From an uncultured Leifsonia sp. (GTDB taxonomy: Bacteria > Actinomycetota > Actinomycetes > Actinomycetales > Microbacteriaceae): 64,000 nucleotides of DNA. A program made the translations under genes and the position numbers. The notes under the pieces were generated by a model that saw only the letters and a list, made by a program, of their open reading frames with translations, had not been told where the DNA came from and did not search any database. The stretch is from the NCBI RefSeq assembly GCF_945957465.1, contig NZ_CAMFLC010000019.1, positions 1 through 64,000 on the forward strand, read 5' to 3'. Position 1 is the first letter of the stretch, and every line of letters begins with the position of its first letter. Shown here piece after piece: positions 1 through 11,488 of this stretch.

Positions 1-94
1 CAGGGGCCGCGGCAGGCGCAGGGACCACAGCAGGCGCAGGGGCCGCGGCAGGCGCAGGGACCACAGCAGGCGCAGGGGCCGCGGCAGGCGCCTC
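1..94. repeat. 36-bp tandem repeat in the dnaX linker
   Basis: The block beginning CAGGGGCCGCGG recurs at 1, 37 and 73, a period of exactly 36 bases. On the minus strand each unit encodes a 12-residue Ala/Pro/Val repeat of the type APAAAPAPAVVP in the tau linker. At least 2.5 units are in the window and the array continues past its edge. Confidence 0.9.
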
Positions 95-1291
95 CGCACG
101 CGACGCATCCGGGCCGCCGACGTCGCTGACGCCGATACGGCGCTCCAGGCGCTCCACGCGGGCGAGCGCGCCGCGCTCGGTGTCGTCGCTCGACGGCACC
201 AGCACGCGCGCGATCATCAGTTCGAGGTGCAGGCGGGGCGACGTCGCCCCCGTCATCTCGGTGAGCGCGGCGTTGACGATGTCGGCCGAGCGGCTGAGCT
301 CCGCCGCACCGAACTTCATCGCCTGCACGCCCATGCGGTCCAGCTCGTCCTGCGGCACTCCGCGCAGCACGGCAGAGGCGCCCTCGACGCTCGTGGCCGC
401 CACCACGATGAGGTCGCGCAGCCGTTCCAGCAGATCGTCGACGAACCGGCGCGGGTCCTGCCCGGTCTGGATGACGCGGTCGACCGCGGCGAACGCCCCG
501 GCGGCGTCGCGAGCCGCGATCGCGTCGATGACCTCGTCGAGCAGCGCGGCGTGGGTGTAGCCGAGGAGCGCGACGGCTCGCTCGTACTCGATCGAGCTGC
601 CCTCGGAGCCGGCCATCAGCTGGTCGAGGAGCGACAGCGTGTCACGCGGCGAACCGCCTCCGGCACGGACCACCAGGGGCAGGACGCCCGGCGCGACGGT
701 CATGCCCTCGCTGTCGCAGAGGCTCTGGACGTACTCCAGCATCTGAGCGGGCGGGACCAGGCGGAAGGGATAGTGGTGCGTGCGCGAGCGGATCGTGCCG
801 ATGACCTTCTCCGGCTCGGTGGTCGCGAAGATGAACTTCACGTGCTCCGGCGGCTCCTCCACGATCTTCAGCAGCGCGTTGAAGCCCTGCGGCGTGACCA
901 TGTGCGCCTCGTCGAGGATGAAGATCTTGTAGCGATCGCGTGCCGGGGCGAAGATCGCCCGCTCGCGGATGTCGCGGGCGTCGTCGACGCCGTTGTGGCT
1001 GGCGGCGTCGATCTCGACGACGTCGAGCGAGCCGGCTCCGTCACGGCTGAGCTCGATACAGCTCGCGCACTTTCCGCACGGGGTGTCGGTGGGGCCCTCC
1101 GCGCAGTTGAGGCACCGCGCCAGGATGCGCGCCGAGGTGGTCTTGCCGCAGCCGCGCGGACCGGAGAAGAGATAGGCGTGGTTGACCCGGTTGGTGCGCA
1201 GCGCCGTCATCAGCGGCTCGGTCACCTGCGATTGCCCGATCATCTCGGCGAAGGTGTCGGGCCGATATCGGCGATAGAGAGCGGTTACCAC
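1..1291 (-). CDS. dnaX: DNA polymerase III subunit gamma/tau, N-terminal part (3' end outside window)
   Basis: Clamp-loader ATPase subunit of the replicative polymerase. The protein opens with VTALYRRYRP. It carries the Walker A motif GPRGCGKTTSAR, the zinc-binding cysteines of the CLNCAEG...CGKCASC segment, the DEAH-type Walker B in ILDEAHMVT and the SRC-like sensor in a TIRSRTHHYPFR stretch. After about residue 390 it enters an Ala/Pro/Val linker encoded by 36-bp tandem repeats and leaves the window there. GTG at 1291 is chosen because it gives the conserved N-terminus; GTG at 1297 is possible. It lies 35 bases downstream of the last BAAT-type lipoprotein gene in the same direction. Family assignment is certain. 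Whether a short gamma form is made cannot be seen, because the usual slippage region is outside the window. Confidence 0.97.
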   Translation of the reverse strand, partial: MVTALYRRYRPDTFAEMIGQSQVTEPLMTALRTNRVNHAYLFSGPRGCGKTTSARILARCLNCAEGPTDTPCGKCASCIELSRDGAGSLDVVEIDAASHNGVDDARDIRERAIFAPARDRYKIFILDEAHMVTPQGFNALLKIVEEPPEHVKFIFATTEPEKVIGTIRSRTHHYPFRLVPPAQMLEYVQSLCDSEGMTVAPGVLPLVVRAGGGSPRDTLSLLDQLMAGSEGSSIEYERAVALLGYTHAALLDEVIDAIAARDAAGAFAAVDRVIQTGQDPRRFVDDLLERLRDLIVVAATSVEGASAVLRGVPQDELDRMGVQAMKFGAAELSRSADIVNAALTEMTGATSPRLHLELMIARVLVPSSDDTERGALARVERLERRIGVSDVGGPDASRAEAPAAAPAPAVVPAPAAAPAPAVVPAPAAAP

Positions 1292-1326
1292 CCACACATG
1301 CTACTTGTCGCCGCTGACATTCGACC

Positions 1327-2595
1327 TCAGCGTCCCGGCACCGACGACGGCGCCGTCAGAGCGGCGAGGATGTCGGCCCACAGAGCCTCCCTGGCGCGCT
1401 CCGTGGGCTGCGCGGCAGACCCCTCCGGCAGGAGCAGCGGCGTGTACGGCGGCAGATAGAACAGGTGGGTCGCATCCGGAGCGCGCAGGTAGGCGTCGCC
1501 CTCGCGCTGCGGGCGTTTCCGCGCCGCGGCGTCGAGCCACGCGCACCCGTTGGCGAGCATCTCGTCCTTCCCGGCGCAGCCAAGCACGACCGGCCCGGGG
1601 ATCCGCTCGATGTCCAGCACGGCCGCCGGAGCCGGATCGTGGGTCCCCGTCGTGCACGGCACCCACGCACCGTCGACGGTCACAGCGGGGCTGGGCACCG
1701 GCGATGGGCAGATCAGGCCGGTCGTGCCTCCGGGAGCGATCGCCCCGTACACCGTTCCCGGGTACGCGGCCGCCGCCCAGAGCGCGAGCGGCGCCCCGCG
1801 CGACGTGCCGAACGTGAAGATGCGCTGGTCGTCCACCCCCGGCTGCGACCGCAGCCAGCCCAGGGCGGTGAGGAAGCGCTCCGCCGAGAGGCTGCGGAGC
1901 GGCTCGAGCTGCCCGGCGGAACCGTAGGTCGACAGGTCGAGCGTCGGGAAGCCGAGGGCCGCGAGCGTCGCAGCCGCGAGTACGCCCGTCTGCTGCCCGG
2001 GGTCGGTGCCGTCGAAGACGATGATGCCCGGCCGCACGCCCTCCGCCGAGCCGGCGGGCTCGAAGTAGTCGCCGGTGATCCCGTCGTCGAACACGGCGCG
2101 CACGGGCGCCGCCGCGGTCAGCCCGACGCGCTGCACGTGCGTCTCCGCGACGGGCCGCCCTCCCACCGAGGCCCGGAGGTCGACGGAGAACGACGAGCCG
2201 CCCCAGGTCACGTCCGAGGTGGCCGCCTCGCCCGTCGCGCCCCGCATGGTCCAGAACAGGCCCATCCCGTCCGCGCCGGTGAACGGCGCCTCGAGCGGGG
2301 CGTCCGTGGCGAGGTCGACGACGCCGTCGGCGGGCACGGCGTATACCGCCTGCGACGTCCAGCTGCCGCCGCGCCGCAGCGTCGCGTGGATGGTGACCTG
2401 CTGACCGGGCGGCAGCGACACGATCCGGATGCCGACCGGCTGCCAGACCGGGCTCGGGTCGGCGCTGAGCTGGAAGCGCGGCCCTGCGGAGCCGGACGGG
2501 GACCCGCAGCCCGTCAGCGCGACCGCCGAGATCGCGACGGCGGCGAGCACGGCGAGCACGCGGTGGCGCACCGTGCGGTTCCGTTCTCTCGTCAC
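1327..2595 (-). CDS. BAAT/acyl-CoA thioesterase-fold lipoprotein, copy A (catalytic triad present)
   Basis: Predicted 422-residue lipoprotein. A basic N-terminus and hydrophobic helix end in the lipobox ALTGC, with acylated Cys30. Residues about 45-165 resemble the beta-sandwich domain of bile-acid-CoA:amino-acid N-acyltransferase/acyl-CoA thioester hydrolases. Residues about 185-420 form an alpha/beta-hydrolase. Visible triad: nucleophile Ser265 in GTSRG, Asp344 in GKDEML and His377 in ATHLF. It is therefore a plausible surface-anchored thioesterase, esterase or acyltransferase; the substrate is unknown. The GTG start overlaps the stop of copy B by four bases (GTGA), so the two are probably translationally coupled. 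The frame stays open upstream to 4041, but only this start gives a signal peptide. Confidence 0.85.
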   Translation of the reverse strand: MTRERNRTVRHRVLAVLAAVAISAVALTGCGSPSGSAGPRFQLSADPSPVWQPVGIRIVSLPPGQQVTIHATLRRGGSWTSQAVYAVPADGVVDLATDAPLEAPFTGADGMGLFWTMRGATGEAATSDVTWGGSSFSVDLRASVGGRPVAETHVQRVGLTAAAPVRAVFDDGITGDYFEPAGSAEGVRPGIIVFDGTDPGQQTGVLAAATLAALGFPTLDLSTYGSAGQLEPLRSLSAERFLTALGWLRSQPGVDDQRIFTFGTSRGAPLALWAAAAYPGTVYGAIAPGGTTGLICPSPVPSPAVTVDGAWVPCTTGTHDPAPAAVLDIERIPGPVVLGCAGKDEMLANGCAWLDAAARKRPQREGDAYLRAPDATHLFYLPPYTPLLLPEGSAAQPTERAREALWADILAALTAPSSVPGR

Positions 2596-3941
2596 GGTCC
2601 GATCGCTCCTTCCAGCAGGGCGGTCACCCGCGACCAGAATGCCACGCGAGCGTCCTCGGTCGCCTGCGCGGTCTGCGCCGGAAGGTCGCCGAGTCCGATC
2701 GGGAGCATCGGAGGCGCGCTCAGCTCGCCCGCCGACCCTTCGGCGACGAGGGTCTCCCGCGCAGCACGAGGCCCCCGGGCTCCGGCTCCCGCGGCTGTCC
2801 ACTCGCACGCGGTGGGCAGCTGCTCGTCGGCGGTGCCGCAGGCGAGCAGCAAAGGCCCAGGGATGCGGTCGAGCGGCAGGATGGGCGTGTCCGCGACGGC
2901 CCGGTCCGGGTCGGCGCACGGGACGGGCCGGCCGTCGTCGAGCAGCGACGGCGCACCCGCCGCCGAGGCGCACAGCTCGGCCGTCGGGCCGCTCGCGGCG
3001 ATGGCCCCGTACACATCCCCTGGCTCGTTCGCTGCGAACCAGAGTGCGAGCGGCGCTGCCGGCCCGGTGCCGTAGACGACGATGCGCGCCGGATCCACAC
3101 CCGGACGGCGGGCGAGCCACGCACGCGCGGCGTCGAAGGTCTGCACCGACAGCGCGGCCGACCCGGGAAGCTGCCCTTCCGGGCCGAACGCCGGCAGCGC
3201 CAGCACCGGGAAGCCGATGGCCGCGATCCGGCGCGCGGCGAACGCACCGGCCGCCGCGTCGCCGTCCCCGTCGATCAGGAGCACAGCGGGGCGCGGATGG
3301 ACGAGGGTGGGCAGCGGGGTGTAGAGCGTCCCGACCCGCAGCCCGGGTCCGTTCACCGGCGGGACCGGCTCGGGCGGCCCGTTCGCGTCGCGCGTCAGAT
3401 CGGCGATGCTCACGTCGCGTTCGACGCTCTGCGCGGCCAGCGGTGAACGCTGCACCTCCGCGATCGCGACCGGAACCCCCTGCTGCTGCGCGGTCACCTC
3501 GATGCGGACCGGGCGCTCCGCCCACGCGCGCTCCAGGTCGGTCTGGCTGACCGAGGGACCCGTCATGCTCCAGAGCAGAGCACCGGCGTCCGGCCGCACG
3601 TACGGGGCGGTGATCGGCTGCTGGGAGGCGGTGTCGACGACGCCGGTCGGCGGCACGGCGTAGAGTGCCCGCGAGCTCCAGGTGCCAGCCGCCGTCGACG
3701 CCGTGGCGGTGAGCACGACGTCCTGCCCCGGCCGCAGGCCCGTCACCGAGACGACGACGGGATCGGCCGTGGCGTTGCCGAACCGCGCGACGACGATCCG
3801 CGCGCCGCCCGCCGGGGCACCCACGCAGCCCGTGAGCGTCGCTGCCAGCACGAGCACGAACGCGGCCGCACGGAGGCGCGGCACGGAGCGCAGGCGCGGC
3901 AGCCTGCGCAGGCGCCCGGGCGGAGGCATCCGGCCGGTCAC
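2592..3941 (-). CDS. BAAT/acyl-CoA thioesterase-fold lipoprotein, copy B (triad degenerate)
   Basis: A 449-residue paralogue of its neighbours. It has an arginine-rich N-terminus and the lipobox TLTGC with Cys39, then a beta-sandwich region (about 45-170) and an alpha/beta-hydrolase domain (about 210-449). At the nucleophile elbow it reads GTGPA, so Gly293 replaces Ser. The Asp is kept (Asp372 in TADEQL), but the region that carries the catalytic His in copy A reads SAGEL. On family knowledge this copy should be catalytically dead; a binding or regulatory role is inference. It overlaps the genes on both sides by four bases. Confidence 0.85.
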   Translation of the reverse strand: MTGRMPPPGRLRRLPRLRSVPRLRAAAFVLVLAATLTGCVGAPAGGARIVVARFGNATADPVVVSVTGLRPGQDVVLTATASTAAGTWSSRALYAVPPTGVVDTASQQPITAPYVRPDAGALLWSMTGPSVSQTDLERAWAERPVRIEVTAQQQGVPVAIAEVQRSPLAAQSVERDVSIADLTRDANGPPEPVPPVNGPGLRVGTLYTPLPTLVHPRPAVLLIDGDGDAAAGAFAARRIAAIGFPVLALPAFGPEGQLPGSAALSVQTFDAARAWLARRPGVDPARIVVYGTGPAAPLALWFAANEPGDVYGAIAASGPTAELCASAAGAPSLLDDGRPVPCADPDRAVADTPILPLDRIPGPLLLACGTADEQLPTACEWTAAGAGARGPRAARETLVAEGSAGELSAPPMLPIGLGDLPAQTAQATEDARVAFWSRVTALLEGAIGP

Positions 3942-5311
3942 GACAGCACCGCCCGCAGCAGCTGCTGTCCCACCGCGTTCCAGAACGCGATGCGGGCGGC
4001 CTGGGTCGACTGCGCGTCTGCGGTGGCGGCCGCGTCTCCATGCCCGTCTCCGGTCGGGAGATCGATCGGCAGGCCCGGTGGCACGGTCACGGCGTGAGCG
4101 GCATGGGATCGGACGAGCAGCCCGTCACCGGCGCGGGTCGCGCGCGTGCGGGCGAGCGCGAGGAGGTCGTCGCAGGCTCGCGGGTACACCGCGTCGTCCC
4201 GGCCGCAGGTCAGGACGACGGGACCCGCGACCGCCTGGAGCGACGGCGGCGCGACCACCGGCCCTGGTTCGCGGACGCAGGGCAGGCCGACGCTCCCGGC
4301 GAAGACCGGCGACGCACTCGAACCGGCGAGGCAGAGCAGCGAGGACGCCCCGCCTCCCGCGAACAGCCCGTGCAACTGTCTCGGGAAACGGGTGGCCGCC
4401 CAGACGGCGAGCTGCTCGGCCGCACCCGTGCCGTACACGAAGAGGTGCCGCGCGTCGACGCCGGTGCGCCGATCGAGCCACTCCAGCACGGCGGAGACCG
4501 TGCCGCTGTCGATGACCGTCGAGACGTGCACGCCGTCCGGCGAGCCGACCGGGACGACGAACACCGACGCCCCGAACTGCGAGAGCACCGGGGCGGTGAA
4601 CGCCGCCGACGCCCCCGGCGACGGGTCGTCGAACATGAGCACCGCAGGCCCGACCGGCCGTTCGATCGACGCGGCGCTCCAGAACGTCCCGACCGGCTCG
4701 TCCTCGTGCGTCTCGTGCGGGGCCTGCCGGCCGCCGACGCCGTCATTCGCCAGATCGTGCGTGTAGACCGTCGCGGCGCGGGAGGTCGTGCCGAGTCCCT
4801 CGAGGCGGAAGGTCCGCCGGGCGACCACGCGATCGCCGTCGGCCGCCGTGAGCGTCACCGGACTCGTGTCGCGCATCCACTGCCGGGCGAGGTCTGCCGT
4901 GCTCAGCGACGGGCCGCGCAGCGACCAGAACAACCCGGCGGAGTCGGGCCGGCTGAAGGGCGCGAGCTGCGGCCGGTCATGTGCGAAATCGATCGTCCCG
5001 TCGCCGCCCACCTGGTAGGTCGCACCCGAGGTCCAGGTGCCGCGCGCCGAGGTGAGGGAGGCCGTGATCCTGAGCCGGACGCCGGGCTGCGCGCCCACCA
5101 GCTGCAGCGGAACCGGCCAGAGCACCGAGCTGAACCGGATCAGAGGCGGTGTGACGAAGCGCGGGCCGACCTGCCCCTCCGTGCTCGCGCAGCCGCTCAG
5201 CCCGCCCGTCACTGCGAGCGCCGCGACGACGAGCGCCGCCCCGACGGTGCGCAGTGCGGTCGTCCGGGTGGTCCGTCCGACCCGCCCGGCCCCATCGCCG
5301 CGCCGCCGCAT
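3938..5311 (-). CDS. BAAT/acyl-CoA thioesterase-fold lipoprotein, copy C (nucleophile missing)
   Basis: A 457-residue paralogue and the first of the three lipoprotein genes. The lipobox is GLSGC with Cys41. The beta-sandwich region spans about 50-180 and the alpha/beta-hydrolase domain about 215-457. The elbow reads GTGAA, so Gly296 stands where Ser is expected. Asp372 (GRDDAV) and His406 (AAHAV) are retained. It begins 15 bases after the ackA stop, so it is probably cotranscribed with pta-ackA. Its stop overlaps copy B by four bases (ATGA). The product is assigned to the family with good confidence; the biochemical role is unknown. Confidence 0.84.
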   Translation of the reverse strand: MRRRGDGAGRVGRTTRTTALRTVGAALVVAALAVTGGLSGCASTEGQVGPRFVTPPLIRFSSVLWPVPLQLVGAQPGVRLRITASLTSARGTWTSGATYQVGGDGTIDFAHDRPQLAPFSRPDSAGLFWSLRGPSLSTADLARQWMRDTSPVTLTAADGDRVVARRTFRLEGLGTTSRAATVYTHDLANDGVGGRQAPHETHEDEPVGTFWSAASIERPVGPAVLMFDDPSPGASAAFTAPVLSQFGASVFVVPVGSPDGVHVSTVIDSGTVSAVLEWLDRRTGVDARHLFVYGTGAAEQLAVWAATRFPRQLHGLFAGGGASSLLCLAGSSASPVFAGSVGLPCVREPGPVVAPPSLQAVAGPVVLTCGRDDAVYPRACDDLLALARTRATRAGDGLLVRSHAAHAVTVPPGLPIDLPTGDGHGDAAATADAQSTQAARIAFWNAVGQQLLRAVLS

Positions 5312-5326
5312 GCCGCACCCGCCCGC

Positions 5327-6520
5327 TCAGCCCGCGCCGACCGCCTGCAGGGACTGCCGGGCGATCTCCAGCTCCTCGTCGGTGGGGACGACGAGCACGG
5401 TCACGCGGGAGTCGTCGGCGGAGATCACTCTGGCCGCGCTCGACGTGGCGTCGTTGCGCTCGGCGTCGAGTCGGATTCCCAGCACGTCCAGCCCGGCGCA
5501 CACCTCGGCGCGCAGCCTGCGGTCGTTCTCACCGACTCCCGCAGTGAAGGTCAGCACATCGAGGCCGCCGAGGAGCGCGGTGTAGGCGCCGATGTAGTGC
5601 TTCAGCCGGTGGACCGTCGTGTCGAGCGCCAGGCGCGCGGCGGCGTCTCCCGACTCCGCAGCGTGCCGAACGTCGCGCATGTCGCCGTGGCCCGAGAGCC
5701 CGAGCAGGCCGCTACGGCGGTTGAGCAGCTCGTCGAGGTCATCGATCCCGAGACCGGCGCGGCGCGCGAGATGCACCAGCACGGCCGGGTCCAGGTCGCC
5801 GGACCGGGTGCCCATCACGAGCCCCTCCAGCGGAGTCATCCCCATCGAGGTGTCGACCGAGCGACCGCCGTCGACCGCGCACGCCGACGCGCCGTTGCCG
5901 AGGTGGAGGACGATCTGCTTCAGCTCCGCCAGCGGCCGGCCGAGGAACTCCGCAGCCGCGCCGGACACGTACTTGTGCGAGGTGCCGTGGAAGCCGTATC
6001 GGCGCACCCGGTGCCGGTCGGCGAGCGCCGCGTCGATCGCGTAGGTGTATGACTCGGGCGCGAGCGTCTGGTGGAAGGCCGTGTCGAAGACGGCGACGTG
6101 CTGCACGTCGGGGAAGGCGGCCTTGGCTGCGCGGATCCCCTCCAGGTTGGCCGGGTTGTGCAACGGCGCCAGGTCGGCGAGATCCTCGATGTTGATCTCG
6201 ACCAGGGGTGTGACGATCGTCGGCTCGAAGAACCGCTTGCCGCCGTGGACCACCCGGTGCCCGACCGCGGCGAGCGGGTTCTCGTCGAGGCTCGGACCTT
6301 CCGCGTCGAACGCGTCGAGCATCACCCGGAAGGCGGCGGTGTGATCCGGGATGGCGAGCGTCGTCTCCCATTTGCCGCGGGGACCGGTGTGCCGGATGTG
6401 CCCGGAGGCCTCGCCGATCCGCTCGATCAGCCCGGAGGCCAGAGCTTCCTCGCTGCCGGCGTCGATCAGCTGGTACTTGAGCGACGACGAGCCGCTGTTG
6501 ACCACCAGCACGGCGCTCAT
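5327..6520 (-). CDS. ackA: Acetate kinase
   Basis: Reversible transfer of phosphate between acetyl phosphate and ADP, giving acetate and ATP. The 397-residue length is standard for the family. The N-terminal signature VLVVNSGSSSLKY, the VVHGGKRF segment, FDTAFHQTL, YGFHGTSHKYV, the phosphate loop HLGNGAS and the C-terminal TAGVGEND are all intact. The ATG overlaps the pta stop by four bases (ATGA). The pair forms the classical Pta-AckA acetate/acetyl-CoA switch in the cytoplasm. Confidence 0.98.
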   Translation of the reverse strand: MSAVLVVNSGSSSLKYQLIDAGSEEALASGLIERIGEASGHIRHTGPRGKWETTLAIPDHTAAFRVMLDAFDAEGPSLDENPLAAVGHRVVHGGKRFFEPTIVTPLVEINIEDLADLAPLHNPANLEGIRAAKAAFPDVQHVAVFDTAFHQTLAPESYTYAIDAALADRHRVRRYGFHGTSHKYVSGAAAEFLGRPLAELKQIVLHLGNGASACAVDGGRSVDTSMGMTPLEGLVMGTRSGDLDPAVLVHLARRAGLGIDDLDELLNRRSGLLGLSGHGDMRDVRHAAESGDAAARLALDTTVHRLKHYIGAYTALLGGLDVLTFTAGVGENDRRLRAEVCAGLDVLGIRLDAERNDATSSAARVISADDSRVTVLVVPTDEELEIARQSLQAVGAG

Positions 6521-8655
6521 GACAGCGCTGCCTGGATCGCGGTGATCGCCACGGTGTCCACGATGTCGTCGACGGTCGCTCCGCGCGACAGGTCGTTGAT
6601 CGGTTTGCGCAGGCCCTGCAGCACCGGACCGATCGCGACGGCGCCGGCGCTGCGCTGCACCGCCTTGTACGTGTTGTTGCCGGTGTTGAGGTCGGGGAAG
6701 ATGAAGACCGTCGCGCGGCCGGCGACCTGGGACCCGGGCATCTTGGCGGCGCCGACGGCGGCGTCGGCGGCCGCGTCGTACTGGATGGGCCCGGCGACGG
6801 CGAGCTGCGGCTCTCGCTCACGGACGAGCTCGGTCGCCGTGCGGACCTTGTCGACGTCCGCTCCCGCTCCGGAGTCCCCTGTGGAGTACGACAGCATGGC
6901 CACGCGCGGCTCGATGCCGAACTGCTCGGCCGTCCGCGCCGACGAGACGGCGATGTCGGCCAGCTGTTCGGCCGTGGGGTCGGGGACGACGGCGCAGTCG
7001 CCGTAGACCAGGACGCGGTCGGCCAGGGCCATCAGGAACACGCTCGACACGACGGACACGCCGGGGCGGGTCTTGATGATCTCGAAGGCCGGCCGGATGG
7101 TGTGCGCCGTCGTGTGCGCCGCGCCGGAGACCATCCCGTCGGCCAGGCCCAGGTGCACCATCATCGTGCCGAAGTAGGAGGCGTCGGTGACGGTGTCCGC
7201 CGCCTGGTCGACCGTGATGCCCTTGTGGGCGCGCAGCTTCGCGTACTCGTTCGCGAACCGGAGCCGAAGGACGTCGTCGAACGGGCTCAGCACCTCCGCG
7301 CGGCTGAGGTCGAGGCCCAGCTCGATCGCCCGCGAGCGCACCTCGAACGGCTCGCCGAGGATCGTCAGGCGCGCGACCCCGCGCGCGAGCAGAGTGGCGG
7401 CGGCGCGGAGGATGCGGTCGTCCTCGCCCTCCGGCAGCACGATGTGCTTGTCGGCGGCCCGGGCTCGCTCGATGAGGTCGTACTCGAACATGAGCGGCGT
7501 GACGACCTGGTGGCGCGAGACGTCGAGAAGCGCCAGGAGCCGGTTCGCGTCGACGTGACGCTCGAACAGTGCGAGCGCGGTGTCGTACTTGCGCTGCGAA
7601 TCAGCGGCGAGCCGCCCGCGGGCGTGGGTGATGCGCACGACCGTCTCGTAGGTGTCGAGCGAGGTCCGCACGATCGGCAGCGGCGAGCGCAGCCCGGAGA
7701 GCAGCCGCTCGATGGGTTCGGGGAGGTCGAAGCCGCCGTTGAGCACGATGCCCGCGATGGACGGGAACGTGCCGGACGCGTTCGCCATCAGCACGGCCAG
7801 CAGCACCTCGGTCCGGTCGCCCGGCACGACGACGACGGCCCCCTCCACCAGCCGAGGGAGCACGTTGTCCATCGACATGCCCGCCACGACGACCCCGAGG
7901 GCCTCGCGCGCCAGCAGCTCCTCGTCGCCGCCGATGAGGGACCCGCCCGTGGCCTCCATGATCGAGCGGATGCTCGGCGCCACCAGGAAGGCGTCCTCCG
8001 GGATCGCCCAGACGGGAGGCAGCTCCGGGCCCGACGCCACCGCCGGCCCGGCCGCCGCCACCGCTTCGCCGACCGCGGACACGATCTCGTCCAGCCGCTC
8101 GGCGTCGGCGCGGTTCGCGATCACGGCGACCACGCCGGCGTGCTCCTCGCGCAGCTCGGCGAGCGCGAGCTCGGCCAGCTGACGCAGCTCCTCCGGCGTG
8201 CGCGGCTCGGCCTGACCGAGCCGCTCTCCGAAGCCCTGGCCGATCCGGCCGCCCAGCACCAGCAGCACCGGGGCTCCGAGGTTCGCCGCGATGCGGGCGT
8301 TGTAACCGAGCTCGGTCGGGCTGCCGACGTCGGTGTAGTCGGAGCCGAGGATGACGACGGCGTCGCAGCGGGCCTCGACGGCCCGGAACCGCCGCACGAT
8401 CTCGCCGAGTGCGGCGTCAGCGTCGGCGTGCACATCTTCGTAGGTGACCCCGATGGCCTCCTCGTAGGTGAGCTCGGCGCTCACCCGGTCGAGCAGCAGC
8501 TCCAGCACGTAGTCGCGTTCGACCGTCGAGCGGGCGATCGGCCGGAACACGGCCACCCGACCGACCGAGTGCCGCAGCGACTCGAGGACGCCGAGGGCGA
8601 CGGTCGACTTGCCGGTGTGCCCCTCCGCGGAGGTGATGTAGAGCGAACGGGCCAC
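6517..8655 (-). CDS. pta: Phosphate acetyltransferase (long, three-domain form)
   Basis: Interconverts acetyl-CoA and acetyl phosphate. At 712 residues it is the long form. Residues 1-210 are a P-loop BioD-like domain (TSAEGHTGKSTVALG). A DRTGG-type regulatory domain follows (about 215-335). The catalytic PTA domain (about 390-712) contains VLPEGEDDR, MVSGAAHTT and FPDLNTGNNTYKAVQRS. The GTG start at 8655 gives the conserved ARSLYITSAEG beginning; the same frame is open further upstream but without homology. The upstream DUF1254 gene ends two bases before it. Confidence 0.97.
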   Translation of the reverse strand: MARSLYITSAEGHTGKSTVALGVLESLRHSVGRVAVFRPIARSTVERDYVLELLLDRVSAELTYEEAIGVTYEDVHADADAALGEIVRRFRAVEARCDAVVILGSDYTDVGSPTELGYNARIAANLGAPVLLVLGGRIGQGFGERLGQAEPRTPEELRQLAELALAELREEHAGVVAVIANRADAERLDEIVSAVGEAVAAAGPAVASGPELPPVWAIPEDAFLVAPSIRSIMEATGGSLIGGDEELLAREALGVVVAGMSMDNVLPRLVEGAVVVVPGDRTEVLLAVLMANASGTFPSIAGIVLNGGFDLPEPIERLLSGLRSPLPIVRTSLDTYETVVRITHARGRLAADSQRKYDTALALFERHVDANRLLALLDVSRHQVVTPLMFEYDLIERARAADKHIVLPEGEDDRILRAAATLLARGVARLTILGEPFEVRSRAIELGLDLSRAEVLSPFDDVLRLRFANEYAKLRAHKGITVDQAADTVTDASYFGTMMVHLGLADGMVSGAAHTTAHTIRPAFEIIKTRPGVSVVSSVFLMALADRVLVYGDCAVVPDPTAEQLADIAVSSARTAEQFGIEPRVAMLSYSTGDSGAGADVDKVRTATELVREREPQLAVAGPIQYDAAADAAVGAAKMPGSQVAGRATVFIFPDLNTGNNTYKAVQRSAGAVAIGPVLQGLRKPINDLSRGATVDDIVDTVAITAIQAALS

Positions 8656-8657
8656 GG

Positions 8658-10052
8658 TCAGTCGGTCTCCTCGTCGATCGGCGGTGTGGTGTCGTTGTCG
8701 GATGCGGGGACGCGCTCGATCGGCGAGAGCCGGTAGCTGCCGTCGAGCACGGCGGGCCCCGGCGCGTACATCCTCAGCAGCGGCCGGAACGCCCCGGACG
8801 GCGCGGGCAGCCAGTTCGCGGCCGCCTTCGGGTCGGTCGGGCGGGCAGCGCTGATCGTGATGGTCAGGCCGCCGTCGTAGTCGTAGACGATCCCCGGAGT
8901 GCGGTCGCCCAGGGAGTACCGCCCGATCGGGTTGTCGACCAGGAAGTAGTGCGGGAGGTCGTACATCGTGATGGACCAGAAGGCGCCGACAGGCGGTGTC
9001 GGGTGCAGACGGAGGCGGTACGTCCGTTCGCCGGTCAGAGCCTCCCCGTCGGCATCGACGTAGGTCGGGAAGTAGGCGGCTTCGTAGGCGTGGTTGCCCC
9101 AGAGACCCCCGAGTGCGGCGGCGGCGCGTCGGGCGTACCGGGTCGCCGGGTCGGGCCGCTGCCATTGGGGGTCGTCGAGAGCGCCCACTTCGAAGTAGTC
9201 GATGTTGTAGTCGAAGACGTGGAGGTTGACCTGCCACCCGTCCACGAGCGGCACAGCGGTGTGCAGGGCGGACTCCAGAGCCTGCCGGCCGACGGCGTAG
9301 CCCTCCTCGAGCGCCGCGCGGACCTCCTCCGGAAGCTCGCCGACGGGCGTCGAGCCGGTGAGCCCGATCGGCTCGTAGGTCTCGAGCGCGCGCCGATCGT
9401 GCTCGGCCGGCGGGAACTCCTGCGACCACACCCGCATCCGCTCGAAGAAGGTGAGCGCTTCGCTCGGGGCCGCCTCGACCTCCGGGACGCCGGCCGCGGG
9501 GGCGAACGACTCGCGCGTCTGGGTCAGGGTCAGGGCGTCCTGCAGGGCGTGCACGGCGGGGAGGTCGTCCTCCCCCGCGACCGCCCAGCGGCCGACGATC
9601 GTGCCGACGCGGGTCGGGAAGCGGATGACGGTGGCGCCCTCCGGCGCGTCCTCGTCCTCCCAGGCCGGGGGCACCAGGAGATACCGGCCTTGCGCCGAAC
9701 CCGTCGCGCGCGAGCCGACGTACGCGAAGTTGTTGGTCCAGGCGTCGACGAACTGGAGGACGTAGTAGCGGTCGCCGACGGCGGGGACCTCCAGCAGCAG
9801 CGGCCCCACACCGAGATCGAGCTGGGCGACCGAGTACACGGTGTCGTTGTTGATGGAGACGAAGGTGGATTCCGGGCCGGCCAGGCTGCGGGCGTGCCCG
9901 AACACGTTGTAGGGGGTCGCGGGCACCGCGCCCAGCCCCTCCCGGGTGAACCGCTGCACTTGGTCGAGGTCGAACACGAGCGGGAACCCGACGACGTATG
10001 CTTCGGACGCCATCTCGGCGATCCCGTGCTCAACGGCTACCTGCTCGGTCAT
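8658..10052 (-). CDS. DUF1254/DUF1214 domain protein
   Basis: A 464-residue protein with the two-domain DUF1254 (about 20-170) and DUF1214 (about 320-440) arrangement. Recognisable segments are EAYVVGFPLV, SINNDTVYS, FVDAWTNNFAYVG, and in the C-terminal domain GAFWSITMYDLPHYFLVDNP and YSLGDRT. No signal peptide is visible, unlike many family members. The molecular function of the family is not established. It is the first gene of the minus-strand run that continues into pta-ackA, with a two-base gap to pta, so cotranscription is likely. Confidence 0.9.
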   Translation of the reverse strand: MTEQVAVEHGIAEMASEAYVVGFPLVFDLDQVQRFTREGLGAVPATPYNVFGHARSLAGPESTFVSINNDTVYSVAQLDLGVGPLLLEVPAVGDRYYVLQFVDAWTNNFAYVGSRATGSAQGRYLLVPPAWEDEDAPEGATVIRFPTRVGTIVGRWAVAGEDDLPAVHALQDALTLTQTRESFAPAAGVPEVEAAPSEALTFFERMRVWSQEFPPAEHDRRALETYEPIGLTGSTPVGELPEEVRAALEEGYAVGRQALESALHTAVPLVDGWQVNLHVFDYNIDYFEVGALDDPQWQRPDPATRYARRAAAALGGLWGNHAYEAAYFPTYVDADGEALTGERTYRLRLHPTPPVGAFWSITMYDLPHYFLVDNPIGRYSLGDRTPGIVYDYDGGLTITISAARPTDPKAAANWLPAPSGAFRPLLRMYAPGPAVLDGSYRLSPIERVPASDNDTTPPIDEETD

Positions 10053-10171
10053 TCGCGCACCTCGACTCGTCGGAGTGTCATTCTACAAAGCGTAGAACAA
10101 TCGGGAGGATGTTGGACAGCTGCTGTGCTGACGACACTCTACGCGGCACGCCGAACGGGAACCTGAACACG

Positions 10172-10264
10172 AAAAAGACCCCCCACGCACCCGCCAGAGC
10201 CCGGTTACCCTTGCTGCGTTTCCGCCCTGGGGGAGTTGGCCTGGATGGCGCCACGTGGGGAGCC
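10172..10264 (-). ncRNA. ffs: Signal recognition particle RNA, small bacterial type (4.5S)
   Basis: On the minus strand the segment reads GGCTCCCCACG...CCAGGGCGGAAACGCAGCAAGGGTAACC...GCGTGGGGGG followed by TCTTTTTC. The GGAAnnGCAGCAAGGG-type apical loop is the SRP54-binding site of SRP RNA. The outer stem pairs the CTCCCCACG start with the CGTGGGGGG end. A -10-like TAGACT (10272-10277) places transcription start near 10264, and the T-run serves as terminator. Exact ends are approximate. Confidence 0.88.
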
Positions 10265-10366
10265 GCGAACCAGTCTAGCGGCTCCCGCTGGGAGGCCGTG
10301 CACAACGGGCCCTCCGCCGTCCGCTAAGATATTGTGAGCCGTCGCCCGCAAGGCGGAGGCAACCCA

Positions 10367-10454
10367 GGAGAATTCGCCTAGTGGCCTATGGCGCACGCTT
10401 GGAAAGCGTGTTGGGTGCAAGCCCTCGGGGGTTCGAATCCCCCATTCTCCGCCA
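10367..10454 (+). tRNA. serT: tRNA-Ser(GGA)
   Basis: Class II tRNA with a seven-pair acceptor stem GGAGAAT/ATTCTCC, a D-arm with CCTAGTGGCCTA, anticodon loop CTTGGAAAG (anticodon GGA), a long variable arm (TTGGGTGCAAGCCC), T-loop GGTTCGAATCC and an encoded CCA. The gene symbol is given by convention only. A -10-like TAAGAT lies at 10325-10330. Confidence 0.96.
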
Positions 10455-10460
10455 TTGTCT

Positions 10461-10505
10461 TGAGTCGCGACATAGGTCTCACCTGAGTCGCGTCTTAGGT
10501 CTCAC
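10461..10505. repeat. Two 22-bp direct repeats just downstream of tRNA-Ser
   Basis: TGAGTCGCGACATAGGTCTCAC (10461-10482 as a whole unit) is followed one base later by a copy differing at two positions (10484-10505). They lie between the tRNA end and its terminator, next to an orphan gene of lower GC. They could be a remnant of a mobile-element end, but no transposase is present. Confidence 0.7.
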
Positions 10506-10512
10506 TTGAAGA

Positions 10513-10537
10513 AGCCCCCGGCCATCGGCCGGGGGCT
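10513..10537 (+). terminator. Rho-independent terminator after tRNA-Ser
   Basis: Perfect 11-bp stem AGCCCCCGGCC / GGCCGGGGGCT with a three-base loop (ATC), followed by TTCTCGTTGTT. It most likely ends the tRNA-Ser transcript. Confidence 0.85.
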
Positions 10538-10747
10538 TTCTCGTTGTTGCGCCAGTAGCTGCGGGTCGGGTCGATGGCCTGACGGAATGTGTCTCGTATG
10601 GCGAGATGGTTCCCGAGGCGGCCTCCTCACTTACACGCCCCGACAGGGGCTCGATATTGGTGCGCACCGGTGAGCGGCACACGGGAGTGCACGATGACCC
10701 GTGCCACGACCTCGCCTTTTCGGCCGCCCCGGGTATAGCGTGCGCAG
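10538..10747. other. Intergenic region, no gene seen
   Basis: No convincing coding frame. The only signal is TATAGC (10734-10739), a possible -10 eight bases before the GTG of the next gene. That spacing would make its transcript nearly leaderless. No matching -35 is visible. Confidence 0.4.
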
Positions 10748-11488
10748 GTGACTGCCGAGGCTTACGCGCGCGACGTGGCAGCGGTTGCCCGCGCCGTAGG
10801 ACCGTTGCTCGAGCACGCGCCTGAACGTCAAACGCCGCCGACGGTCGGCGTGTTCCTCATCGAAATGCACGTGCGCGCTTCACGCATTGCCGTACTGACT
10901 GCAGCGCAGCAAGCGCTTCAATTGGCATTTGACGCGGCGACCGTCGCTGTCCTCCACCCAGAGGCTGCCGGCGACCCCGAGGCAGTGTCGGAGTTGTTAG
11001 ACAACCCTGACCTCGTACTCAACATGGTCTGGGCCGGCCCGGGTTCACTCCGCCAGGTCTTCACCGTCGATCCGCTGACAGCGGACGGGCGAGAGAACAT
11101 CCTCTACATATTCAGCGCTGGCTTCTTGGCCTTGGCATTCATTCCCGGAGGACAGCCTTTTGCGGTTGCCTACGCCTTCACACTGGGGACACTCTTGCAG
11201 GTGGGCAGATGGCGCGAGCGGTATGAGACCTTGCACCCCGTGCGTGTGAGGACGATCGACAAAGCTTCATTAGAGGAATCCGGCACCGAGATTCGAATAT
11301 ATCCACCGGGCACCTCTTGGCATCCGCCGGACTCGACGAAGCCCGGCCAACACGAAGCGGAACTCTTTGCGACGCTCCGCGACCGTGTCGACAAGTTGGA
11401 AGCGCAGGCTCAACATGATCGCGCCACGATACGCCGACTGGAAATCACAGTGGCTTCGCTGAGGGCCAAGCCATCACGGCCCGAGTGA
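10748..11488 (+). CDS. Hypothetical protein, orphan, C-terminal coiled coil
   Basis: A 246-residue protein that I do not recognise. The N-terminal ~90 residues are helical and Ala-rich. Around residues 118-155 lies a hydrophobic stretch (ILYIFSAGFLALAFIPGG then FAVAYAFTLGTLLQVG) that may form two short membrane helices or a buried core. The last ~45 residues (ELFATLRDRVDKLEAQA onward) show heptad spacing typical of a coiled coil. Base composition is visibly less GC-rich than the surrounding genes and rarer codons such as TTA and ATA are used. Together with the position after a tRNA gene, this suggests horizontal acquisition. GTG start; a TATAGC box lies just upstream. Confidence 0.65.
   Translation: MTAEAYARDVAAVARAVGPLLEHAPERQTPPTVGVFLIEMHVRASRIAVLTAAQQALQLAFDAATVAVLHPEAAGDPEAVSELLDNPDLVLNMVWAGPGSLRQVFTVDPLTADGRENILYIFSAGFLALAFIPGGQPFAVAYAFTLGTLLQVGRWRERYETLHPVRVRTIDKASLEESGTEIRIYPPGTSWHPPDSTKPGQHEAELFATLRDRVDKLEAQAQHDRATIRRLEITVASLRAKPSRPE

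Follow-up and report, generated by a model that had tools for sequence, protein, structure and literature searches.

Near the start of a 64,000-nucleotide stretch of DNA from a soil bacterium, an uncultured Leifsonia sp. (contig NZ_CAMFLC010000019.1; the whole stretch is referred to as the window), three tandem genes, here called A, B and C, encode predicted lipoproteins of the ACOT/BAAT type, and two of these, B and C, are very probably conserved pseudoenzymes, because their catalytic nucleophile is absent, selection maintains both and the array recurs. The best explanation overall, to which we would give about an even chance, is that A is catalytic and that B and C are its inactive partners, all three being derived from one exported hydrolase. 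Each protein combines a lipoprotein signal, a PF04775 domain and an alpha/beta-hydrolase domain, and all lie on the minus strand: C at 3938..5311 (ATG start, 457 amino acids), B at 2592..3941 (GTG, 449 amino acids) and A at 1327..2595 (GTG, 422 amino acids), within the order pta, ackA, C, B, A, dnaX. The C/B and B/A junctions are 4-base pair (bp) stop/start overlaps, both GTGA (3938..3941 and 2592..2595). The initial annotation of this DNA had described three tandem BAAT-fold lipoproteins coupled by such overlaps, a description borne out by the coordinates, the overlaps, the lipoboxes and the PF04775 scores.

A complete Ser/Cys-Asp-His triad is found in A (Ser265-Asp344-His377) and in neither of its neighbors: B has Gly293, Asp372 and Gly405 at the corresponding positions, and C has Gly296, Asp373 and His406 (nucleophile codons on the minus strand: TCG at 1801..1803 in A, GGG at 3063..3065 in B and GGT at 4424..4426 in C). 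The initial annotation had given the triad of A, Gly293 and the missing His of B, and Gly296 of C with its Asp and His retained; these assignments hold in the window and can be extended to the arrays of other genomes. In A, the Ser, Asp and His are each invariant in 28 of 28 copies, as is the Arg following the Ser. At the nucleophile position of B, Ser occurs in none of 23 copies (Gly in 18, Trp in 5), and 5 of the 27 C copies still have it at theirs (21 have Gly and 1 has Ala). The Asp is kept in all 50 B and C copies and the His in all 27 C copies; the His of B is present in 19 of 23 and is lost only in a four-genome group that includes the window. Relatives outside the array (38 proteins from 37 genomes, G167 and G336 each having stood twice among 40 rows; L093 and L103, which are cut or broken, and L117, L118 and L120, which were not recovered at 60 bits, were omitted) have the Ser in 37 of 38 and the Asp and His in 38 of 38 each. 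The array is not a product of chance, since other genomes of the genus have it too, along with the replaced nucleophile. A separate candidate pseudoenzyme stands outside it: L107 (genome G989), a PF04775 protein from the same phylum, has Ala at the nucleophile (GTARGGE) and keeps the Asp, the His and a Glu.

All three proteins of the window exceed the PF04775 cut-off of 27 bits (A 75.7, B 57.1 and C 39.8), and they account for every one of the three PF04775 matches in the whole genome assembly. For PF08840 (BAAT_C; cut-off 20.9 bits), A lies above the cut-off at 22.1, B lies below it at 15.7 and C gives no hit at an E value of 1; a PF08840 search of the whole genome gave no match at E 0.001. 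Identity to the A or B of the window is 31-37%, with about a third of the residues common to A, B and C. In a combined A/B/C profile, the stretches around the Ser, Asp and His line up with those of human ACOT4, and across both domains the AlphaFold models of A and B correspond to ACOT4 and ACOT2, having the type I two-domain fold of ACOT/BAAT proteins (beta-sandwich plus alpha/beta-hydrolase); as modeled, B retains the two-domain ACOT fold. B and C are relatives of ACOT/BAAT enzymes by descent and fold, not family enzymes.

Export is predicted from the amino termini, where a lipobox Cys (Cys41 of C in LSGC, 5189..5191; Cys39 of B in LTGC, 3825..3827; Cys30 of A in LTGC, 2506..2508; all minus strand) is found, by a loose pattern, in 78 of 78 array copies, and A, B and C would accordingly be surface-anchored lipoproteins. 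Four cysteines of the domain are invariant in B and C and conserved in A too. One of them, Cys351 of A, has an equivalent in all 78 array copies and in none of the 38 relatives; the other three are each found in five or in all six of the closest lipoprotein relatives that were examined. We infer from this conservation that the domain cysteines form disulfides, in keeping with an exported protein.

Recurrence of the array in related genomes, a check proposed with the initial annotation, was found widely. PF04775 is present in 26 of the 28 Leifsonia genomes searched (the window's included), and in each of those 26 the array lies between ackA and dnaX, as it does in the two genomes sampled from a second genus, g29. 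The two Leifsonia genomes without PF04775 (G027 and G003) are small, at 2.6-2.7 Mb. In G027, ackA and dnaX are about 280 bp apart, the array proteins match nothing between them at E 0.001, and a single weak match to an array protein lies outside, some 4.7 kb away; in G003, no dnaX was detected in the roughly 6 kb that follow ackA downstream. Beyond these genera, in samples that overlap one another, PF04775 occurs in 18 of 398 genomes of the family (10 Leifsonia, 2 g29 and 6 single-copy), in 14 of 396 of the order (13 of them single-copy) and in 27 of 396 of the phylum, and no further tandem array was found in any of the three. Two matches in one genome, the window's aside, were seen in the phylum sample in G853 (apparently one broken gene) and in G1151 (places about 775 kb apart).

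The arrays vary in composition. Five of the 28 array genomes (G001, G002, G005, G013 and G018) have no B, one (G023) has no C, another (G026) has a frameshifted C, and G055 has two C copies. In G023, which has no C, B (L054) starts with a C-like leader, as though C and B had recombined. In G026, C (L057) is split by the frameshift, and in G018 the end of C (L049) is shifted into the frame of A; these frameshifts are either real decay or assembly error. The 887-amino acid open frame of G018, in which the end of C enters the A frame through seemingly out-of-frame sequence, is read as a frameshift or assembly error and not as a fusion; a C-A fusion was considered as evidence for a complex and rejected, the lipobox of A itself persisting. 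G004 carries, off the array, a lone C-like copy (L058, about 4527-5735) that has a Ser elbow (GTSQS) and falls inside the C clade.

The nucleophiles of B and C appear to have been lost at different times. In a tree of 52 rows, covering 16 of the 28 array genomes and five outgroup lipoproteins, A, B and C form one clade each, and B and C are sisters (support 99/98). Five genomes, the two of g29 and three of Leifsonia, have Trp at the nucleophile position of B, and because it occurs in both genera, parsimony suggests that B probably lost its Ser before Leifsonia and g29 split. The Ser of C is found in g29, G004 and G012, from which, again by parsimony, the loss in C would be the later one; the two losses thus differ in age, B never having Ser and C having it in 5 of 27 copies. 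The Ser of G012 is encoded by AGC, versus TCN in the other Ser copies, and may have been kept or regained.

Both inactive genes are under purifying selection, slightly weaker than that on A, since the ratios of nonsynonymous to synonymous substitution rates (dN/dS) are far below 1: over 11 chosen genome pairs (12 genomes from two Leifsonia groups, none of the five Trp-B genomes among them), they are 0.10-0.24 for A, 0.11-0.26 for B and 0.08-0.30 for C. The reading frame of B is open in 23 of 23 copies, though the Ser is missing in both genera. The genes are also tightly packed. Among 50 gene junctions in 27 genomes (G018 omitted), 44 are 4-bp overlaps, 5 are 1-bp overlaps and 1 is unresolved; starts were taken as the codon nearest the preceding stop, which favors overlaps, yet these starts agree with the signal peptides. 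Between ackA and the array gene that follows it lie 12-30 nucleotides in Leifsonia, and 58 and 84 nucleotides in g29.

A itself departs from its relatives at two places. One loop is GGSEGG in 15 of the 38 relatives and DGTDPG in the A of the window; it opens with Asp in 27 of 28 A copies and in all 50 B and C copies, versus none of the 38 relatives (24 of which have Gly). The Glu found four residues after the Ser (Ser+4) in 37 of 38 relatives is present in none of the 28 A copies (Gln in 22, Pro in 5 and Ala in 1; Pro269 in the window) and in none of the 50 B and C copies. Because this Glu is missing and the loop is altered, A may differ in chemistry or substrate. As judged from its residues, A is a probable enzyme whose activity is not assured, and of the initial proposal of one active enzyme plus two pseudoenzymes the second part is supported, while the first calls for caution.

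Building on what the computation establishes (the triad and its losses, the synteny, the overlaps, purifying selection and the fold of A and B), the explanation that we favor would run as follows. Two duplications of one exported ACOT/BAAT-type serine hydrolase would have given rise to A, B and C. A, as a hydrolase or acyltransferase, would work on the outer side of the membrane, cleaving or transferring an acyl ester or thioester; B and C would assemble with A, or bind its ligand, and as regulatory or ligand-presenting partners would tune its activity or the delivery of its substrate. Because the gene order is fixed and the genes overlap, partnership with A is the likeliest role for B and C, at a probability that we would place just short of even, and a complex of A, B and C, which the initial annotation had suggested alongside a role in ligand sensing, is plausible. 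A bolder form, which we advance only tentatively and think rather improbable, is an obligate heteromeric surface enzyme acting on acyl esters, in which B (plugged by Trp and dead early) and C (dead later) would serve A as activator and lipid-presenting subunits; to our knowledge, such an arrangement of dead subunits would be the first in the ACOT/BAAT family.

Several observations weigh against a catalytic A with dedicated partners. The replacement of Glu at Ser+4 throughout A is one. The dN/dS of B exceeds that of A in 8 of 11 pairs, and that of C does so in 9 of 11. A persists in the five genomes of 28 that have no B and in the one that has no C, with another C frameshifted, so it can do without B or without C. 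Coevolution is of no help: partial correlations of tree distances among A, B and C are 0.49-0.78 (20 genomes), but because each of the three also correlates with ackA, at 0.56-0.62, the measure is uninformative, and we rejected it as evidence of contact. The asymmetry of retention (A in 28 of 28, B or C sometimes absent) was likewise rejected as evidence, since it amounts to about three independent events: G001, G002, G013 and G018 group together, in a grouping that omitted the two C pieces of G026 and the distant relatives G229, G344 and G365.

The inactive copies could also be explained without any partnership. B and C may be independent ligand-binding or carrier lipoproteins, their emptied pockets binding an acyl compound without cleaving it and A being a mere neighbor, an alternative that we regard as possible but on the whole doubtful. 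The complete retention of Asp in B and C and of His in C fits such a role, as do the losses of B and of C singly in some genomes and the conserved features that B and C have to themselves, for example Glu299 in 26 of 27 C copies and, in C of Leifsonia, an [EQ]THED loop present in 22 of 24 copies (HETHED in the window, residues 199-204, 4700..4717, minus strand, ahead of the hydrolase domain), which is perhaps a metal or ligand site. The retained Asp and His carry little weight, however, with 15-18% of columns invariant in C and B, and in every array found B or C stands together with A, the genes overlapping. An array without any conventional hydrolase, in which A too is catalytically altered and all three proteins have structural or binding functions, is unlikely. 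The missing Glu, the Asp at the start of the loop and the bare margin by which A passes the BAAT_C cut-off would all agree with this, but the Ser, Asp and His of A and the adjacent Arg have stayed invariant in 28 of 28 copies at a mean distance of about 0.48 (20 genomes).

That B and C are decaying duplicates on their way to loss is largely refuted and, in our judgment, barely credible: the damaged C genes of G026 and G018, the absences of B and C listed above and dN/dS values somewhat above those of A in most pairs point that way, but the values for B and C (0.08-0.30) remain far below 1, and B has kept its frame open in every copy despite lacking the Ser in both genera. A substitute nucleophile in B or C is also unlikely, and activity through one close to the elbow is very improbable. 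All 23 B copies and all 27 C copies have a Ser or a Thr immediately ahead of the nucleophile position (in the window, Thr in both proteins), and the four domain cysteines are invariant in B and C. A residue just ahead of the nucleophile, however, is normally directed away from the pocket; at the elbow itself, B and most C copies have Gly, Trp or Ala; the Trp of five B copies would fill the pocket; the B proteins of the window's group lack the His too; and the cysteines, conserved in A as well, look like disulfides. Across the 50 copies, the hydrolase domain has no further Ser, Thr or Cys that is retained unchanged in both B and C.

The surroundings of the array (gene identities from Pfam) are those of a conserved locus. 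Upstream of C by 15 nucleotides lies ackA (acetate kinase; 5327..6520, minus strand), which overlaps pta (phosphate acetyltransferase; 6517..8670, the latter coordinate approximate; minus strand) by 4 bp, and downstream of A lies dnaX (DNA polymerase III gamma/tau; 1..1288, minus strand), which runs past the edge of the window. Past the pta region, a tRNA-Ser (GGA) occupies 10367-10454 on the plus strand. The array is likely co-transcribed with pta-ackA; no sigma-70-like promoter was found in positions 1-10800, a scan of little weight given a chance expectation of 0.2. A link to acetate metabolism through pta-ackA was considered and rejected, ackA standing beside dnaX without the array in some other members of the family; inspection of 4.2-kb ackA loci from 14 genomes outside the genus showed dnaX inside the 1.5-kb flank in 3. 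Because this adjacency occurs without the array, the ackA-dnaX site looks like an incidental landing place.

One locus thus offers a natural series from enzyme to pseudoenzyme: a copy with the triad, a copy that died early (Trp or Gly) and a copy that died late (Ser in some species). The retention of the dead copies suggests a job of their own, and the reasons for keeping inactive copies become directly testable in small bacterial proteins. The array also points to an exported branch of ACOT/BAAT proteins, for which the usual intracellular acyl-CoA is unlikely as a substrate.

Acyl-CoA is an unlikely substrate outside the cell, and it is inside the cell that human ACOT2 and ACOT4 act on it. 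These type I acyl-CoA thioesterases (PDB 3hlk and 3k2i) resemble the array proteins in two-domain layout and fold, and the Ser, Asp and His stretches of ACOT4 align with theirs; the array proteins differ in carrying lipoprotein signals and extra cysteines, and two of the three lack the nucleophile. Other Actinobacteria have single-copy BAAT-type lipoproteins, five of which (G167, G336, G441, G524 and G631) were compared and which, as in the array, have a lipobox Cys and a full triad, together with three of the array's four domain cysteines. Unlike the array, they lack the fourth Cys, have Glu at Ser+4 and a GGSEGG or SGSEGG loop, and sit among other gene neighbors. In both G167 and G336, the neighbors include a VanZ-like protein and a thiamine-pyrophosphate enzyme, those of G441, G524, G631 and G775 differ, and the neighbors in these six genomes gave no clue to the substrate.

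The best-ranked titles of the open-licence literature contained no account of a tandem array or of inactive bacterial BAAT-type copies. LipG, a mycobacterial phospholipase/thioesterase (PMC6435540), may be compared with the array as a thioesterase at an actinobacterial membrane that is tied to envelope lipids, an activity that in A is putative; LipG differs in being a single protein associated with the cytoplasmic membrane. Mammalian BAAT and BAATP1 (PMC6934887) also arose by tandem duplication, with a Cys235-Asp328-His362 triad, but there the nucleophile swaps between Cys and Ser in intact genes, and for the most part one gene or the other has been lost where the array keeps all its copies; in the array, B and most C copies have lost the nucleophile altogether. 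BAAT belongs to the PF04775/PF08840 family by the Pfam names. An inactive paralog beside an active one is seen in the pseudoenzyme activators Fam20A and MTMR13 (reviewed in PMC10211241), which belong to other enzyme families and whose complexes have been shown experimentally. The ACOT/BAAT family is already known; what seems to be new, as far as those titles go, is a tandem array of it with inactive copies.
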